A stretch of DNA of 41,526 bases from Candidatus Methanoperedens sp. (lineage in GTDB: Archaea; Halobacteriota; Methanosarcinia; Methanosarcinales; Methanoperedenaceae), in NCBI GenBank assembly GCA_026552955.1, contig JAPMTS010000013.1, forward strand, positions 2,465 to 43,990, in the 5' to 3' direction. Positions within the stretch are counted from its first letter, which is position 1. The number at the start of each line of letters is the position of its first letter. The position numbers and the translations under genes are program-made. Shown here in pieces: positions 25,180 through 41,526 of the stretch. A model generated the notes under the pieces. It made no database searches. It had not been told where the DNA came from and saw only the letters and a program-made list of their open reading frames with translations.

Positions 25180-26334
25180 ATGAAGGGAATGACTGAAATG
25201 CAGAACAATAACCATAATTACTGGGAGGGAAAAACCATCTCACCAATCGCTCTTGATGATAAAATGACCATAACGCAGCTTGTTGATGACGTATTCGACG
25301 GTATGGGATATAATGCAAAACGATTGGCGCAAGCGTGTCATCTCTTCAAATCCATGCTGGATGAGAATTCAACTGTTTGCCTGACGCTGGCAGGCGCAAT
25401 GACCCCCGTGGGTCTGGGCGGCGGGATAATTAAAATGATAAAGAAGGGATTTGTGGATTGGATAGTTACAACAGGCGCAAATACTTATCATGACCTGCAT
25501 TTTGCGTATCAACTTCCTGTACACCAGGGAGATTACAATGCCAACGATAATGATCTGGCTGAAAATGATGTTGTGCGCATATACGATGTTTATATTGATA
25601 TGCAAAGAACTCTCATTGCCCAGGATAAGATCATACAGACGTTAACAAGGAAAGCCAATGAAAAAAACATGTTCCCTGAAAAATTCTCGACCGCTTATTA
25701 TTATAAGATTCTTGGTGAAGGGGTTCTTGAGACTGCAACGTATCCTGATAAATCTTTTATTGCATCCGCTTCAAAATACAAAGTTCCCGTTTTTGTACCA
25801 AGTTTTGCGGATTCATCGGTTGGCATGGGAACAAGTTACTTACCTATCCTTGCGAATGGAAAATCAGGCTCATCTGAACTTGATCCCCGAAATTTCGTAG
25901 ATCCTAGCCCCACAATGGATGTCCTTGAAAGCGCTGCCATAGTTCATGACAGCATGGTACATGATATCCCGCGCGGAGTCCTTGAAGTTGGAGGTGGCGT
26001 GCCAAAGAATTTCCTCCAGCAGACCGGTCCCATGATCTCCCAGATCATAGGGATGGAATGCCCTGGTGAAAATTTTGTGATCCAGGTAACAGTTGACCGC
26101 CCTGACACAGGCGGACTTTCAGGAGCGACAATAAACGAAGGAAAATCATGGGGCAAAATTCCAAAAGCAGGTGAAGGAAACATAGTTCCATATCTTGATG
26201 CCACGGTAGGCATTCCCATAATCTTTGCATATGCTCTTGAAAACTGCAAACCCAGGAAACCCAGGAAGCTGGGCGAAAGATTGCCCTGGATAACGGGGGA
26301 ATTGATAAAAGCTGCAAGGCTGAATGTGGAATGA
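25180..26334 (+). CDS. dys2: Deoxyhypusine synthase paralogue 2
   Basis: A DHS-family enzyme of about 384 residues. Visible family blocks: VCLTLAGAMTPVGLGG, VTTGANTYHD, EVGGGVPKNFLQQ, DTGGLSGATINEGKSWGKI with the catalytic lysine, and YLDATVGIPIIFAY. It differs from the second DHS in the window (37691-38617) by insertions between residues 100 and 230. Methanosarcinales commonly carry two such genes. One is expected to make deoxyhypusine on aIF5A; the other may use a different acceptor amine. The TATA box predicts a start near 25165, so ATG 25180 or 25189 is preferred over the TTG at 25156. Confidence 0.85.
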   Translation: MKGMTEMQNNNHNYWEGKTISPIALDDKMTITQLVDDVFDGMGYNAKRLAQACHLFKSMLDENSTVCLTLAGAMTPVGLGGGIIKMIKKGFVDWIVTTGANTYHDLHFAYQLPVHQGDYNANDNDLAENDVVRIYDVYIDMQRTLIAQDKIIQTLTRKANEKNMFPEKFSTAYYYKILGEGVLETATYPDKSFIASASKYKVPVFVPSFADSSVGMGTSYLPILANGKSGSSELDPRNFVDPSPTMDVLESAAIVHDSMVHDIPRGVLEVGGGVPKNFLQQTGPMISQIIGMECPGENFVIQVTVDRPDTGGLSGATINEGKSWGKIPKAGEGNIVPYLDATVGIPIIFAYALENCKPRKPRKLGERLPWITGELIKAARLNVE

Positions 26335-32564: not shown

Positions 32565-32741
32565 TATTGCCTAAGATTAGTTTGAGGAGTATATGAGGAT
32601 GAGGTTGGTATAGTGACTTTAAATTAAAATACATCCCGTAACATATTTTATATAAATATGCGAAAGGAGAAAAAAATCTATTTGAATAAGGAAAAATTTA
32701 AAAACTATGAATAATTATAGGATATTTGTTGGATACTAAAA

Positions 32742-34190
32742 ATGAAAAAAAAATTTAATAATAAAATCCTTATTATCGGTTTTGGTTCAGTTTCACAATG
32801 CACCCTGCCCGTTTTAACGGATAAGATCGATGTTGGGCTGGAAAACATTACCATAATTGACTTTGAAGACAAATCAGAAGATTTGAAAAAATATACCGAC
32901 CAGGGATTAAGGTATTTCCGTGAAAAAATTACACCAGAAAATTTAGATCAGGTTTTGTCAAAATATCTGGATAATGGAAGCCTGCTCATTGACCTGGCCT
33001 GGAATATAGGCGCCAATGATATTATTAAATGGTGTCATGATCACAATGTATTGTACGTTAATACTTCAGTTGAACTCTGGGATCCTAATGAGGGAATTTA
33101 CACGAAAAGCCCTTACGAAAAATCGCTTTATTGGCGGCAAATGCAATTGCTTAAACTTTCCCGTGATTGGAAAGATGCGCCGACTGCTGTTATTGACCAC
33201 GGTGCAAATCCCGGCCTCATTTCTCACTTCGTAAAACAAGCCTTGCTGGATATAGCCGAACGCACCTGTGCTGATAAGAAAGTATCTCCGGAAGATGAAG
33301 AAGAAATTGGTATGCTTGCAAAAAACAGGGATTTTGCCCGACTCTCGATGAAATTAGGAATTAAAGTGATCCATTGCAGCGAGCGAGACACTCAAATTGC
33401 CAACAGACCAAAGGAGGTCAACGAATTTGTAGGGACGTGGAGCATTGAAGGACTGAGGGAAGAAGGAACTGCTCCGGCTGAAATAGGTTGGGGGACACAT
33501 GAAAATAAGCTCCCACCCCTGGCCAATAAACCTCCATGCGGACCTGAGAACCAGATTTTCTTGCCACAGATGGGCATTAATACATGGGTAAGATCGTGGA
33601 TACCGGATGAAGAAATTATCGGTATGATGATCCGGCACGGTGAAGCATTCGGTCTTTCGGACAGGTTGACAGTCTGGGAAAATGGCAGGGCGATCTATCG
33701 GCCTACCGTAAATTATGCTTATATGCCATGTCACGATACGCTTTCCTCGCTTTGGGAATTGCGCGGCCGGAATTATGAACTCCAGCCCAGGATCAGGATA
33801 ATGAGAGATGAAATTATATCTGGCGAAGATACTCTGGGGGCGCTCCTGATGGGGCATTTTTATGATTCCTGGTGGACGGGCAGCTCTTTGAGTATTGAGG
33901 AGGCAAGATCTCTTGCTCCCGGCCAAAACGCTACTACTCTCCAGGTAGCGGCAGGTATTATTGCTGCTGTACTCTGGATGCTTGAAAATCCGCGGGAAGG
34001 TATTAAGTTGCCCGATGACCTGCCTCATGATTTTATCCTGGATATCGCTAAGCCATATCTCGGAAAATTTATTTCGACTCCGTCTGACTGGACACCTCTT
34101 AAAAATCGCAAAATCTTTTTTAAAGAACATCCGTCAGCGAAATATAATCCTGATCCATGGCAAATTGAAAATTTTCTTTTCATAGGCTAA
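32742..34190 (+). CDS. hss: Bacterial-type NAD-dependent homospermidine synthase
   Basis: A 482-residue enzyme that joins aminobutyl units of putrescine (or spermidine) into sym-homospermidine. Family blocks: the N-terminal Rossmann start ILIIGFGSVSQCTLPVL, VIDHGANPGLISHFVKQALL, CSERDTQIANRPK, FVGTWSIEGLREEG, EIGWGTHEN, and QMGINTWVRSW. The length equals that of Blastochloris/Legionella-type Hss. The third glycine of the GxGxxG loop appears as serine. The partner decarboxylase starts 26 bp downstream. This family is mainly bacterial, so transfer is likely. A related saccharopine-dehydrogenase-fold enzyme is the chief alternative, judged less likely. Confidence 0.85.
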   Translation: MKKKFNNKILIIGFGSVSQCTLPVLTDKIDVGLENITIIDFEDKSEDLKKYTDQGLRYFREKITPENLDQVLSKYLDNGSLLIDLAWNIGANDIIKWCHDHNVLYVNTSVELWDPNEGIYTKSPYEKSLYWRQMQLLKLSRDWKDAPTAVIDHGANPGLISHFVKQALLDIAERTCADKKVSPEDEEEIGMLAKNRDFARLSMKLGIKVIHCSERDTQIANRPKEVNEFVGTWSIEGLREEGTAPAEIGWGTHENKLPPLANKPPCGPENQIFLPQMGINTWVRSWIPDEEIIGMMIRHGEAFGLSDRLTVWENGRAIYRPTVNYAYMPCHDTLSSLWELRGRNYELQPRIRIMRDEIISGEDTLGALLMGHFYDSWWTGSSLSIEEARSLAPGQNATTLQVAAGIIAAVLWMLENPREGIKLPDDLPHDFILDIAKPYLGKFISTPSDWTPLKNRKIFFKEHPSAKYNPDPWQIENFLFIG

Positions 34191-34216
34191 TAGCAAATAA
34201 TATTTCGGATACCATT

Positions 34217-35404
34217 ATGGATGAGAAACAAAAAGAAATGCTAAAAGAAATTGCCCGGGAACAGGGTACGCCGGTTTTTATTATAGACCATGAAAAGATC
34301 AGGGAGAATTATCGTGAATTCAGGGAAAAATTGCCTGATGTGCAGGCTTATTTTGCGGTAAAGGCCAATTCCAATCCTGAAATTGTCAAAACTATGTATG
34401 AGATGGGTTCTAGTTTCGACGTGGCTTCTTTCCCTGAATTTATGCTGGTCCATGAAAACATCAAGCATTTGTCTGAAAAACAACAGGAAGATTTCATCTG
34501 GAATAAAATTATCTATGCCAATACCATCAAACCTGCCGAAGTCCTGGCCAAGTTGAATGCTTATAAGATCCTGGTTACTTTTGATAATATCGAAGAATTG
34601 AAAAAAATAAAAAAATACTCTCCGGATGTTGGGCTGATTTTGCGGATACGCGTACCTAATACTGGTTCCATGGTCGAGCTTTCCTCAAAATTCGGAGCCC
34701 ATCCCGGAGAAGCAGTTGATCTTATTGCAAAAGCCCTGGAATTGGGGCTCGGAGTTGAAGGCATTAGTTTTCACGTGGGCAGCCAGTGCAATAATTTTGA
34801 TAACTATTCGCAAGCTTTGAATTTTGCCTCATCAATTTTCAATGAAGCAGAATTAAGAAATTTTCATATAGGGTTTACCGGCAAGGAAAACCAGAAAAAA
34901 AGAATTCTAAATATAGGAGGCGGTTTTCCGGTAAGGTACACACCTGACGTAAAATCTTTTGCCGCCCTGGCTGAAATGTTGAATTCGGAAATAAAGCGAA
35001 CCTTCCCGAATGATGACATTGCGGTCATTGCAGAGCCGGGGAGATTTATAGTGGCTACAGCCTGTACTTTAGTCACGAAAATCATCGGCAAAGCTGTTCG
35101 GGATGGAAAAACATGTTATTACCTGGACGACGGTGTATATCATACTTTTTCCGGACAAGTTTTTGATCATCAGCACTATCCGCTGCATTCCTTCAAGGAA
35201 GGGGAGAAAAAAGTTTGCGCCACCTTCGGCCCCACCTGCGACGCTTTCGACACTATTTCCCTTACAGATGAACTGCCTGAGGATCTACAAATTGACGATT
35301 TGCTTTATGCTGAAAATATTGGCGCCTATACGATCGCTTCAACTACCTATTTTAATGGTTTTCCGCCTCCCAAAGTAGTGCATTTGAATAAACAAAGAAG
35401 GTGA
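34217..35404 (+). CDS. Type III PLP ornithine/diamino-acid decarboxylase
   Basis: A 395-residue alanine-racemase-fold PLP enzyme. The PLP lysine lies in QAYFAVKANSNPE (Lys49); further marks are FDVASFPEF, SFHVGSQCNNF, NIGGGFPVRY, IAEPGRFIV, FGPTCDAFD with the catalytic cysteine, and GAYTIAS. It most likely decarboxylates ornithine to putrescine, the substrate of the adjacent homospermidine synthase; lysine or both may be accepted. Co-oriented with hss with a 26-bp gap. Many archaea make putrescine through arginine/agmatine instead, so this cassette is an addition. Confidence 0.88.
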   Translation: MDEKQKEMLKEIAREQGTPVFIIDHEKIRENYREFREKLPDVQAYFAVKANSNPEIVKTMYEMGSSFDVASFPEFMLVHENIKHLSEKQQEDFIWNKIIYANTIKPAEVLAKLNAYKILVTFDNIEELKKIKKYSPDVGLILRIRVPNTGSMVELSSKFGAHPGEAVDLIAKALELGLGVEGISFHVGSQCNNFDNYSQALNFASSIFNEAELRNFHIGFTGKENQKKRILNIGGGFPVRYTPDVKSFAALAEMLNSEIKRTFPNDDIAVIAEPGRFIVATACTLVTKIIGKAVRDGKTCYYLDDGVYHTFSGQVFDHQHYPLHSFKEGEKKVCATFGPTCDAFDTISLTDELPEDLQIDDLLYAENIGAYTIASTTYFNGFPPPKVVHLNKQRR

Positions 35405-37690: not shown

Positions 37691-38617
37691 CTATTTGACA
37701 GCTCCGCTTTTTGCCGCCGCAACAATTATCGGGAGCGTGATCGTAGCATCGGAATACACTGTCACAGATCTTGCTTTTTCCCCGATCTTTCCCCATGAGC
37801 GCGCTTCATCAAGCGTTGCGCCTGAAAGTCCGCCGGTCTCAGGCCTGTCCATGGTCAGGGCAATGGCATAATCAAAAGAACGCGGAGTCACAAGCATGGA
37901 TTGCAGTATGAAGTTCTTAGGCACACCGCCTCCTATTATCATCACTCCGGCGCGTTTTGCGTCAAAACACCTGTCTATCAATCCCCTCATATCCTCAAAC
38001 ACATCAATATTCAGCGGCTTTGTCTGCTTGTACAGCCATGCCTGCAAGCCAATGATAGAATCCTGGATGGCAGGGCAGTAAACAGGCACATTCATATCAT
38101 ATGCGCTTTTTAAGATGGAGTTTTTATCATCAAGTCTTGCACCAATGTGTGAGAGAAGTTCTGTTATTGAAAGCTTCGCAGGGATCTCTTTAAAAATTGA
38201 CTGCAGTTTTTCTTCAAAATCAGTGAAATGATGCTCAGGCAGGAATACATCATAAATTCGATTAACTGCATCATGTTTTAATTTGATGTCGTCAATTGCG
38301 TCTGTTCCCTTGTAATGATGAAGCCCCATGGCCTCGATTATATCATGAACCAGGTTTGCGCCTGTGCTCACAAGAACATCGATCTCCCTGTCCCTTATCA
38401 TATCGCTCACAATATGTCTCATTCCCGCAGGCACCATGGCCCCGGCAAGACCCAGGAATTTTGTGCAATCCCGGTCGTTTATCATTTCCCGGTAAATGTC
38501 AACAGCTTCATAAATGCGCCCTGCCCCGAAAGCGCACCCCGATAAAGAGTCCACAAGCTGATCTACTGTCATGTCCCGCGTTATTTTCGCGGGCCTGATA
38601 GGTTTGTTGAGTTCCAT
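37691..38617 (-). CDS. dys: Deoxyhypusine synthase
   Basis: A 308-residue DHS of canonical archaeal length. It transfers the aminobutyl group of spermidine to a lysine of aIF5A. Visible: KFLGLAGAMVPAGMRH, VSTGANLVHDIIEA, RIYDVFLPEHHFTDFE, VYCPAIQDSIIGLQ, IGGGVPKNF, TGGLSGATLDEARSWGKI with the catalytic lysine, and SDATITLPIIVAAA. Of the two DHS genes in the window this is the closer to the classical enzyme. Followed on its strand by no operon partner. Confidence 0.93.
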   Translation of the reverse strand: MELNKPIRPAKITRDMTVDQLVDSLSGCAFGAGRIYEAVDIYREMINDRDCTKFLGLAGAMVPAGMRHIVSDMIRDREIDVLVSTGANLVHDIIEAMGLHHYKGTDAIDDIKLKHDAVNRIYDVFLPEHHFTDFEEKLQSIFKEIPAKLSITELLSHIGARLDDKNSILKSAYDMNVPVYCPAIQDSIIGLQAWLYKQTKPLNIDVFEDMRGLIDRCFDAKRAGVMIIGGGVPKNFILQSMLVTPRSFDYAIALTMDRPETGGLSGATLDEARSWGKIGEKARSVTVYSDATITLPIIVAAAKSGAVK

Positions 38618-38652: not shown

Positions 38653-40026
38653 TCACCGGAAACATTTCACACAGGATAAAATAATATCTTTTTCTTTTGT
38701 TAATGATCTTGCAACCTCGATCCCGCCAGGTAGGTCATTCGCATGATGGATTTTCTTTAAATCCTTCACTATTAATGGTCTCATTCTTTCCCCTACAAGC
38801 ACGAGGGCAGCAAGTTCATGCAGGTGATCATTGATAAACAGGTCAACTCCAGCCGGGTCAAGTCCTTCACATACTTCTTTTGCTTCTTCGCCCAGCACCA
38901 TCACGATCATTTCATCGCCTTTTTTCGAATATTCAAGCGCCTTTTTGGCGGTCCTGATATCCATTCCCGAGTTTGAGTTATCGATCAATATCCTGCCATC
39001 AAATGATTTTTTCTTCATTCGGCCTTCCGCACCTTTAAATTCCAATAATGTACGCTCAATTGTCCCGGAATCGATATTCATGCATAGGGCTGCAGCTATC
39101 GCACACACAAAAGCGGTTTTATAAGAATTTATGTCGTAATCCGAAGCTTCATGAATATGGATCGTGCCATGTTCCTTCCCAAGAAAATAGCCTAATGTTG
39201 CGCCTTTTGCATCCAGGCTCTCAAAATAGACATTACATGCTGCGTTTACAGAATCAGTAAATGAGATAATATCAATATCTCTCCTGCATGCCCCGAAAAA
39301 TCTCAATGCATCATTGTTTACAACAAGTTTGCTCCCGGGTTTTGCATCAAGTATCATCCTTCGCTTTGCATCACTTGCAAGCCCTGTGTTATTTGCTATT
39401 TTATAATCATTGGCTATAGTGGTAATTATACCAATATCGGCAAATCCTGTCCCGCCCAGTGAGACTTCAGCTATGAATACATCGAATCCGACACTGGCAT
39501 CTTGCAGGTGATCAAGAGCCGTCAGGATACCTGCTGGCGTTATGCTCAATCCTTTCCTGAGTATTGTTCCTGTGCTCCAGTCTTCAAGACCCCTGCTTGT
39601 ATGTGAGATCACCTTTTTTTTTCTGGATAAAATATCTGCCAGCAGGAGTGCTGTGCTTGTTTTAGCTTTTGTACCGGTCAGCTCGATTATTGTCCTGTTC
39701 TTAAGGTCGTACCCTGATAAGATATGCCCAACTGCTTGATGATGGGATAGAACAGGGATCTTATTCACCGATGCATCCGATAACATTGGATAATTGGCAT
39801 CAAGGTGAACCGGAGCCACGATAATATCAAAATCAGATGCTTTAAGGGGCTTGCATGATGTTATTATCCCTTCACTTTCAATTTCAGCCAATAATTCGGG
39901 ACTTATGGTCCTATAGACATCTATAGCTGTCACTGCTCCTGTTATCTTCTTCAACTTGCGGGCTATGACAGCCCCCCCATGGGTTAGATCAAGAACAGCG
40001 ACTCTTGATCTATTATGAAAGATCAT
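38653..40026 (-). CDS. cfbE: Coenzyme F430 synthetase (Mur ligase family)
   Basis: A 457-residue MurE-like ligase. The ATP-binding loop is ELTGTKAKTSTALLL; the central domain shows NDYKIANNTGLASDAKRRMIL and the C-terminal ligase domain KGAEGRMKKKSFDGRILIDNSNSGMD. In F430 synthesis it activates a side chain and closes the last carbocyclic ring. The start overlaps the stop of cfbA by one base (TAATG). This gene marks an organism that makes methyl-coenzyme M reductase cofactor. Confidence 0.9.
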   Translation of the reverse strand: MIFHNRSRVAVLDLTHGGAVIARKLKKITGAVTAIDVYRTISPELLAEIESEGIITSCKPLKASDFDIIVAPVHLDANYPMLSDASVNKIPVLSHHQAVGHILSGYDLKNRTIIELTGTKAKTSTALLLADILSRKKKVISHTSRGLEDWSTGTILRKGLSITPAGILTALDHLQDASVGFDVFIAEVSLGGTGFADIGIITTIANDYKIANNTGLASDAKRRMILDAKPGSKLVVNNDALRFFGACRRDIDIISFTDSVNAACNVYFESLDAKGATLGYFLGKEHGTIHIHEASDYDINSYKTAFVCAIAAALCMNIDSGTIERTLLEFKGAEGRMKKKSFDGRILIDNSNSGMDIRTAKKALEYSKKGDEMIVMVLGEEAKEVCEGLDPAGVDLFINDHLHELAALVLVGERMRPLIVKDLKKIHHANDLPGGIEVARSLTKEKDIILSCVKCFR

Positions 40027-40430
40027 TAATTCGAGGAGATAGCTTCAGTGGCCCTCTTGTATGCCAGTTCTGCAACCAGTTCATCAACTCCGAGTGGTTC
40101 TGAATAAATAAGTGCTACATCTCGCCCGTCAAGTTTTATCAGGGTTTTGCGAGAGTCCTTGCTTATACCAAGGATCTGGGGAATATCTTCCATCGTATGC
40201 ACGCCATGCGCCAGGAATATGGGAACGGCTATTATCTTGGAAACTCCTGTCCCTTTGAAAGCATCAAGTCCTTCTTTCATCGTGGGTGTGTTCATATTCA
40301 TAAAACCTGTTCTAACAACAACATTCTTATATTTCTTCGCGATCAGTTCGGCAACACCCGTGACTACCTCTTTATTATGCGGATGTCTGCTTCCATGCCC
40401 AAGTGCAAGTATTCCAATTTTTTCAGTCAT
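40026..40430 (-). CDS. cfbA: Sirohydrochlorin cobalt/nickel chelatase
   Basis: A 134-residue small chelatase (CbiX-S type). Histidines that bind substrate metal are in ILALGHGSRHPHNKEV and VPIFLAHGVHTMEDIPQ. In archaea this enzyme inserts Ni2+ for F430 (CfbA) and Co2+ for cobalamin. Here it shares an operon with cfbE, favouring the F430 role, although it may also serve the cobalamin operon at 4912-8969. GAGGAT precedes the ATG at 40430. cfbB, cfbC and cfbD are not in the window. Confidence 0.9.
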   Translation of the reverse strand: MTEKIGILALGHGSRHPHNKEVVTGVAELIAKKYKNVVVRTGFMNMNTPTMKEGLDAFKGTGVSKIIAVPIFLAHGVHTMEDIPQILGISKDSRKTLIKLDGRDVALIYSEPLGVDELVAELAYKRATEAISSN

Positions 40431-40568
40431 AAAAATCCTCATTTAATCATTATAATAGATTTTTGGTTTTTTATGGTAGTGGCTTCTTATAACACTTTTG
40501 GAAAGCATTAATATTAATTACCCTTCCTTTCAGAAGATCGCAGCATGATATTGATAGAATTACGTGAA

Positions 40569-41526
40569 CTACCCCTTGCTCTCACAAGGGGCTTCCCGCT
40601 TCATTGCTTCTCTATTGAGATTGCTCTGTCGGACTTGAATTCCGGCAATACCTGCCGTACTCCTTTTTTCGATTATTATTGCCGACACTTGGTCTCTATC
40701 CATGACAAGACCGCAGTTCGGGCAATTGTGTATCCTTACGGATAGGTCTTTTGGTACGTGGTGACCACATATACAGGTCTGCGATGTTCCATTGGGATTA
40801 ACCAATTCCACTACCTTACCAGCGTATTCTGCTTTGTAGATAGTAAATTGATTAATTGTGACCATGATGCATCTACTATTGACTTTGCAAGACAATGGTT
40901 TTTAAGCATGTTTTGTATTTGCAATCTCTCAAACACTACATGGTCATAGTTATTAACAAGATCAGTACTTAATTTATGATTGAAATCCCTTCTCTGATTA
41001 CGGATTTTACGATGAACTTTAGCGACTTTTATTCGTTGTTTATTCCTATTCTCTGAACCTTTCTTTTTCGTTGACAGGTATATCTGTTCTCGTGCAAGTC
41101 TTTTTTCTGATTGTCGCAGGTATTTTGGTGATTGAATCTGTTTTCCGTTGCTGAGTTTTATCAGGTTTATTAATCCGACATCTATACCTGTTATAGTTTC
41201 GATTTTAACAGGAATGATTGGAATATCGATTTGACATGAGAATGAAACATACCACTGGTCAACATCTTTCTTAATGGTACATGTTTTGATTTTCCCTTCA
41301 ATCTCACGATGCAATATGATTTTGATTGCTCCTATCTTAGATAAGATAAGTTTTCCATCTTCGAGTTTCAGACCACTGCCGGGGTATGTGAATGAATTAT
41401 ACCTGTTTCGTCCTTGAAATCGTGGGTATCCTTCACCACTATAGAAGTTCTGGAAACTCCTCTCCACTCTTTTCAAGACGTTTTGTAGTACCTGGGAATG
41501 TACTTCTTTCTGGAATGGTGTTTTTG
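40569..41526 (-). pseudogene. tnpB: IS200/IS605-family TnpB, frameshifted and cut by the window edge
   Basis: The right edge cuts into the start; the frame is still open at 41526. Recognisable parts: FYSGEGYPRFQGRNRYNSF, RuvC-I TGIDVGLINLIKLSNG, the bridge segment with repeated Lys/Arg, RuvC-II-like HVVFERLQIQNM, and in another frame SIYKAEYAGK-like sequence, the zinc ribbon TCICG...CPNCGL and RuvC-III MDRDQVSA. The frame changes between about 40838 and 40850, where LINLL should join YKAEYAGK; a single base lost or gained explains it. No tnpA is visible. TnpB is an RNA-guided nuclease in intact elements; this copy is probably inactive unless the shift is programmed or an assembly error. Confidence 0.85.
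40572..40591. promoter_or_regulatory. Hairpin at the 3' end of tnpB, candidate IS605 right-end structure
   Basis: CCCCTTG and CAAGGGG form a 7-bp stem around CTCTCA, covering the last codons of tnpB. IS200/IS605 elements end in such subterminal hairpins, and the guide RNA scaffold overlaps the tnpB 3' end. It would be the right end of this element. Confidence 0.5.

Follow-up and report, generated by a model that had tools for sequence, protein, structure and literature searches.

A bacterial-type hss-odc operon as the probable source of homospermidine in a Candidatus Methanoperedens archaeon

Two adjacent genes in a contig of Candidatus Methanoperedens sp. raise the question of how this archaeon makes its polyamines and from where it obtained the means to do so. 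Within the window (the whole stretch of 41,526 nucleotides that was analysed), a gene for a homospermidine synthase (HSS) is directly followed by a gene for a decarboxylase that may supply its substrate, and two genes of the deoxyhypusine synthase (DHS) family lie on either side of the pair. An earlier note on this DNA regarded a bacterial-type cassette of this kind as odd for an archaeon. That premise is weakened by our survey, in which hss occurs in 36 of the 394 genomes of the phylum and in 10 of its 136 genera, and by published work: homospermidine is known as an abundant polyamine of methanogens (Scherer and Kneifel 1983, as cited in PMC5178350), archaea encoding HSS or SpeY are mentioned in PMC10407285, and archaeal HSS is present in the tree of PMC9992855. 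The kind of pathway is already known, and the added interest of this locus lies in the apparent transfer of the cassette, a coexisting SpeY-like gene and a missing arginine decarboxylase. Our literature search found no publication on Methanoperedens polyamines and no enzyme assay for the HSS or the ornithine decarboxylase (ODC) of this lineage. The cassette consists of the following features:

32646..32657, + strand: TATA-like element TTTTATATAAAT, ending 84 bp upstream of the start of hss

32742..34190, + strand: hss, homospermidine synthase of the bacterial NAD-dependent type, 482 aa (from the open reading frame, Pfam domains and PDB matches)

34191..34216, + strand: hss-odc spacer, 26 bp, with the adjacency kept in relatives

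34217..35404, + strand: odc, alanine-racemase-fold PLP ornithine (lysine/ornithine) decarboxylase, 395 aa (from PDB matches and pocket residues)

Both open reading frames occupy exactly the positions that the earlier note had given them, with hss 26 bp before odc, and their identities are confirmed. HSS aligns over its full length with solved homospermidine synthases (2ph5, E 8e-107, residues 4-477; Blastochloris viridis 6s65, E 2e-93) and contains the Pfam domains Sacchrp_dh_NADP and Sacchrp_dh_C. Relatives at 86-90% identity come from Candidatus Methanoperedens or a Methanosarcinales bin, and this one gene family places the window very probably among these anaerobic methane oxidisers. Nine residues that have been shown or proposed to serve putrescine binding and catalysis in the B. 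viridis enzyme (PMC4725965, PMC8489232) are all identical in the archaeal protein: E117, N162, E210, W229, E237, H296, E298, Y323 and D361 of B. viridis HSS align with E111, N156, E214, W233, E241, H299, E301, Y325 and D363, respectively, in columns that are mostly invariant across the aligned homologues. B. viridis Asp94 is replaced by Asn in the Methanoperedens protein, a substitution with which the B. viridis enzyme (D94N) keeps 61% of its activity (PMC8489232).

The NAD loop of HSS reads GFGSVS (residues 13-18), and the serine in place of the third glycine had been taken as a hint of altered cofactor use. This suggestion does not hold. The third loop glycine is dispensable, because the catalytically active HSS of Pseudomonas aeruginosa (PMC8489232) has the loop GLGTIA, with alanine at that position; the serine is found at the last position of the loop in every archaeal homologue aligned (GYGSVS, GYGAVS), and the NAD-ribose Asp45 of B. 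viridis HSS is conserved as D40. Over the entire length of the solved 6y87 chain, a plasmid-borne P. aeruginosa HSS shows no visible difference from it. The HSS on a plasmid of Legionella adelaidensis (L033, 4001-5446) is ~50% identical to the archaeal protein, compared with 36-39% for other proteobacterial plasmid copies.

The best PDB matches of the ODC are lysine/ornithine decarboxylases (L/ODC; 5gjm, E 3e-69). The PLP lysine (Lys49), the catalytic C341 and the substrate aspartates D317 and D342 are present, and the pocket residues Y308, D317, C341, D342, Y371, S375 and F379 are conserved in the alignment with the Selenomonas enzyme, for which the roles of pocket residues have been described (PMC5115768); the sole exception in the pocket is Tyr298, which corresponds to Phe316. 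Against the diaminopimelate decarboxylase model TIGR01048, the protein reaches 160 bits, short of the cut-off of 298, and a distant homologue elsewhere in the genome (28% identity, at C46) is probably lysA.

The intact residues of both proteins suggest that ODC would decarboxylate ornithine to putrescine, one molecule of which would be oxidatively deaminated by the tightly bound NAD+ of HSS. A Schiff base would then form with a second putrescine and be reduced by the NADH formed, yielding sym-homospermidine and ammonia; for bacterial HSS this course of the reaction is established (PMC4725965, PMC8489232). The 26-bp spacer is consistent with co-transcription of hss and odc in one operon. The TATA-like element is the sole match of its kind within the window, where 0.04 would be expected by chance, and may be an archaeal promoter of the operon. 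The genes flanking hss-odc vary among the Methanoperedens loci compared. At 40569-41476 of the window, two overlapping open reading frames lie in different frames, the longer of which matches TnpB (IS200/IS605 RNA-guided nuclease) from about profile position 80, and this element looks frameshifted or cut.

The arrangement of the two genes recurs in part of the archaea and widely in bacteria. The odc gene follows hss at all three loci of the same genus and at all ten f15 loci, and at 0 of the 17 Methanosarcinaceae-like loci, and a pair in the same order is found in Methanoregula and Methanolinea (Methanomicrobiales). Among bacteria, the pair occurs at most of the Verrucomicrobiota, Planctomycetota, Chlorobiota and Elusimicrobiota loci and at several Omnitrophota loci.

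In the HSS tree (110 rows), the archaeal proteins form one cluster inside the bacterial radiation, with starred branches of 97*, 99* and 98*. Three bacterial bins (L146, L147 and L157) lie inside this cluster, and a tree constrained to keep them out of a single archaeal clade is rejected (AU p 4.8e-6); they may represent either further real transfers or wrongly binned contigs. When the three are removed, the archaea form one clade with a support of 96*. The ODC tree is broadly congruent with the HSS tree at lower support. Methanosarcinaceae hss appears nested inside Methanoperedens in the tree, yet this nesting is not significant (AU p 0.12). The earlier note had proposed to judge the bacterial origin by phylogeny, and the archaeal copies of both proteins are indeed nested among bacteria, but the rejection of the alternative that places the archaea outside one clade of non-proteobacterial bacteria is marginal (AU p = 0.065, with the three doubtful bins dropped). 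The same marginal value, together with the bacterial bins within the archaeal clade, is what could be said for a vertical history of hss-odc in archaea, from which bacteria would have taken the cassette. We consider such a history very improbable, given that a wider and deeper bacterial diversity surrounds the archaeal clade on the starred branches, that hss is patchy in archaea (the 10 of 136 genera given above) and that the HSS family in general is bacterial.

The tree nesting and the conserved gene order favour, short of proof, a transfer of the whole operon from bacteria to archaea. We infer its direction and date, and the donor was most likely a bacterium from the neighbourhood of Omnitrophota, Elusimicrobiota and the PVC group. 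The GC and GC3 of hss-odc are like those of the neighbouring genes, and the acquisition is therefore an old, ameliorated one; a recent transfer marked by odd base composition is ruled out by the same ordinary values. The operon would have entered the Methanomicrobiales/Methanosarcinales lineage long ago. Together with gene identity, these observations support the description of the locus as a bacterial-type cassette leading from ornithine through putrescine to homospermidine.

What else the cell might make depends on the remaining polyamine genes, for which all absences rest on profile searches in a genome that is ~95% complete and are accordingly provisional. The earlier note had seen no spermidine synthase here, and the genome bears this out: neither speD nor speE was found in any of 20 genomes (this one and 19 relatives), while control genomes were matched. 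On this result, the cell's main triamine is probably homospermidine. The arginine and agmatine route, which had been named as the usual one in archaea, is represented by an agmatinase-family gene but not, in our searches, by an arginine decarboxylase. The agmatinase gene lies on another contig, 3 bp after the aIF5A gene, and the two relatives of the same genus that were inspected (L074 and L076) have the pair as well, an association known from Euryarchaeota (PMC5178350). This genome, G337 and G343 gave no match for the pyruvoyl arginine decarboxylase, which was found in G364 and the other 16 genomes of the 20-genome panel; across the family, it was found in 15 of 34 Methanoperedenaceae genomes, and those without it include several that are 98-99% complete. 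A search of the genome for the AAT-fold arginine decarboxylase gave only a weak sub-threshold match. Agmatine is required in archaea for the agmatidine modification of tRNA-Ile (PMC5178350).

The two DHS-family genes, the only such open reading frames in the genome, bear on both the use and the source of homospermidine:

25180..26334, + strand: DHS-family paralogue of SpeY-like type, possibly a second homospermidine synthase (best model NF001980; SpeY/PRK00805 side of the tree)

37691..38617, - strand: dhs, canonical archaeal deoxyhypusine synthase (NF002630, 508 bits, cut-off 364)

Both had been read as deoxyhypusine synthases, which is right for the canonical dhs but not for the paralogue. 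The best model for the latter is NF001980 (homospermidine biosynthesis), at 378 bits below a cut-off of 450, and its relatives, at 380-386 bits, likewise stay below it. The best DHS model, NF002006, gives 212 bits against a cut-off of 434, and NF002699 (the caldomycin synthase CdmS) 163 bits against 500. In the DHS-family tree, where very long branches allow coarse placement only, the paralogue falls on the SpeY/PRK00805 side (96*). On the model scores and this placement, we reject the reading of the paralogue as a second deoxyhypusine synthase. The protein is ~30% identical to cyanobacterial DHS-like proteins, its gene is restricted to this family among the 394 genomes of the phylum, and a scan of the protein against viral contigs gave no match.

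The catalytic lysine motif SWGK is present in both proteins, and in dhs its lysine is aligned to human Lys329. The human spermidine-contact residues Asp243 and Asp316 correspond to Leu and Leu in dhs and, in the alignment, to Met and Leu in the paralogue; the agmatine-only enzyme CdmS has Phe and Leu at these two positions (PMC10981699). The Leu/Leu pair in dhs is a mild argument against a spermidine site of the human kind, and favours neither agmatine nor homospermidine over the other. Two overlapping genes, cfbE (coenzyme F430 synthase) and cfbA (sirohydrochlorin nickelochelatase), occupy 38653-40442 of the window, directly upstream of dhs and on its strand; these F430 genes are in keeping with an anaerobic methane oxidiser.

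Some observations on DHS paralogues were made in relatives. In Methanosarcina-like genomes G381, G384 and G340 (L104, L105 and L106), a PRK00805-type DHS paralogue is preceded, at a distance of a few hundred bases, by a second gene for pyruvoyl arginine decarboxylase, an arrangement that suggests a pairing of decarboxylase and DHS-like protein, perhaps with agmatine as the substrate. A CdmS-type identity of the second Methanosarcina DHS was considered and rejected, as NF002699 has no match at E <= 1e-120 in the 394 genomes and L042 and L051 fit NF002006. The DHS paralogue at L063 (G177) contains one in-frame TAG, a codon that can code for pyrrolysine in that family, and this could be either readthrough or a dead gene.

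Two donors of the aminobutyl group for deoxyhypusine on aIF5A have to be weighed. Under one explanation, hss-odc chiefly feeds DHS and homospermidine is the donor. Homospermidine has been named as a possible DHS donor (PMC5178350), dhs lies 2.3 kb from the cassette at this locus, and with no speD, speE or arginine decarboxylase found, homospermidine and putrescine are left as the evident home-made aminobutyl sources. This role is doubtful, though, since relatives without hss keep DHS, and hss is therefore not generally needed by DHS. Moreover, the aIF5A-agmatinase pair corresponds to the Haloferax agmatine model (PMC5178350), and the residues of dhs at the Asp243 and Asp316 positions resemble those of the agmatine enzyme CdmS (PMC10981699). 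The last two points are also the main arguments for the other explanation, in which DHS transfers agmatine, agmatinase trims the product and hss-odc serves bulk polyamine only; the gene pair is found in this genome and at L074 and L076. We give this explanation a little less than an even chance. Against it, no arginine decarboxylase was found here or in several relatives of 98-99% completeness, and the cell would therefore need to import agmatine or to form it with an enzyme of another kind.

The source of homospermidine can be questioned in a similar manner. HSS and SpeY are unrelated enzymes with one function (PMC9992855), the presence of HSS and a SpeY-like gene within one genome is notable, and the paralogue is possibly a homospermidine synthase too. 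It could even be the main maker, with HSS redundant or directed to another product: its best model is the homospermidine one, it keeps the SWGK motif, and G343, the sister genus, carries a SpeY-like gene but no hss. We find this unlikely, considering its score of 378 bits against the cut-off of 450, its ~30% identity to the cyanobacterial DHS-like proteins and the fully intact active site of HSS.

As a whole, we favour the explanation that hss-odc is an operon of bacterial origin that converts ornithine to homospermidine, the probable main triamine, and that entered the Methanomicrobiales/Methanosarcinales lineage long ago, with a probability of roughly 0.86. A more far-reaching proposal, to which we give little credence, if somewhat more than to a main role of the SpeY-like protein, is that part of the Methanoperedens lineage, in which speD, speE and a recognisable arginine decarboxylase are lacking, has shifted its whole polyamine supply from the archaeal arginine route to the acquired bacterial ornithine route, with two unrelated homospermidine synthases (HSS and the SpeY-like protein) and with deoxyhypusine on aIF5A made from homospermidine or putrescine in place of spermidine or agmatine. 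The favoured explanation would provide a clean case of a two-gene polyamine operon that crossed as a whole between domains and became established among methanogens and anaerobic methane oxidisers; hss-odc would also be a genetic explanation for homospermidine in such archaea. It also sharpens the question of the aminobutyl donor for deoxyhypusine in archaea without spermidine and here seemingly without arginine decarboxylase.

Compared with known systems, the archaeal HSS shares full-length homology, the catalytic residues, the position of the Rossmann loop and the NAD-ribose aspartate (D40 for Asp45) with the bacterial enzymes of B. viridis (4plp/4tvb), P. aeruginosa (6y87) and Legionella (2ph5). 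It differs from them in that the third loop glycine is serine in archaeal copies, Asp94 is Asn, and the present hss adjoins odc. The ODC has the alanine-racemase fold, PLP lysine and pocket residues of the L/ODC of Selenomonas ruminantium (5gjm) and Vibrio vulnificus (2plj), and differs from the former in having Phe316 for Tyr298. The paralogue at 25180-26334 belongs to the same superfamily and tree side as SpeY, the DHS-like homospermidine synthase of cyanobacteria and others, but remains below the NF001980 cut-off at ~30% identity; with CdmS, which carries out agmatine homocoupling, it shares the superfamily without reaching the NF002699 cut-off. HSS is orthologous to that of Methanosarcina and Methanolobus (75-84% identity) and of the hss-odc pairs of Methanoregula and Methanolinea (~65%), whereas Methanosarcinaceae hss loci are without an odc neighbour and retain pyruvoyl arginine decarboxylase and agmatinase. 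The hss-odc cassettes of Omnitrophota, Verrucomicrobiota, Planctomycetota, Chlorobiota and Elusimicrobiota agree with the present one in gene order and orientation, with proteins ~55-72% identical, and differ from it in that their hosts are bacteria.
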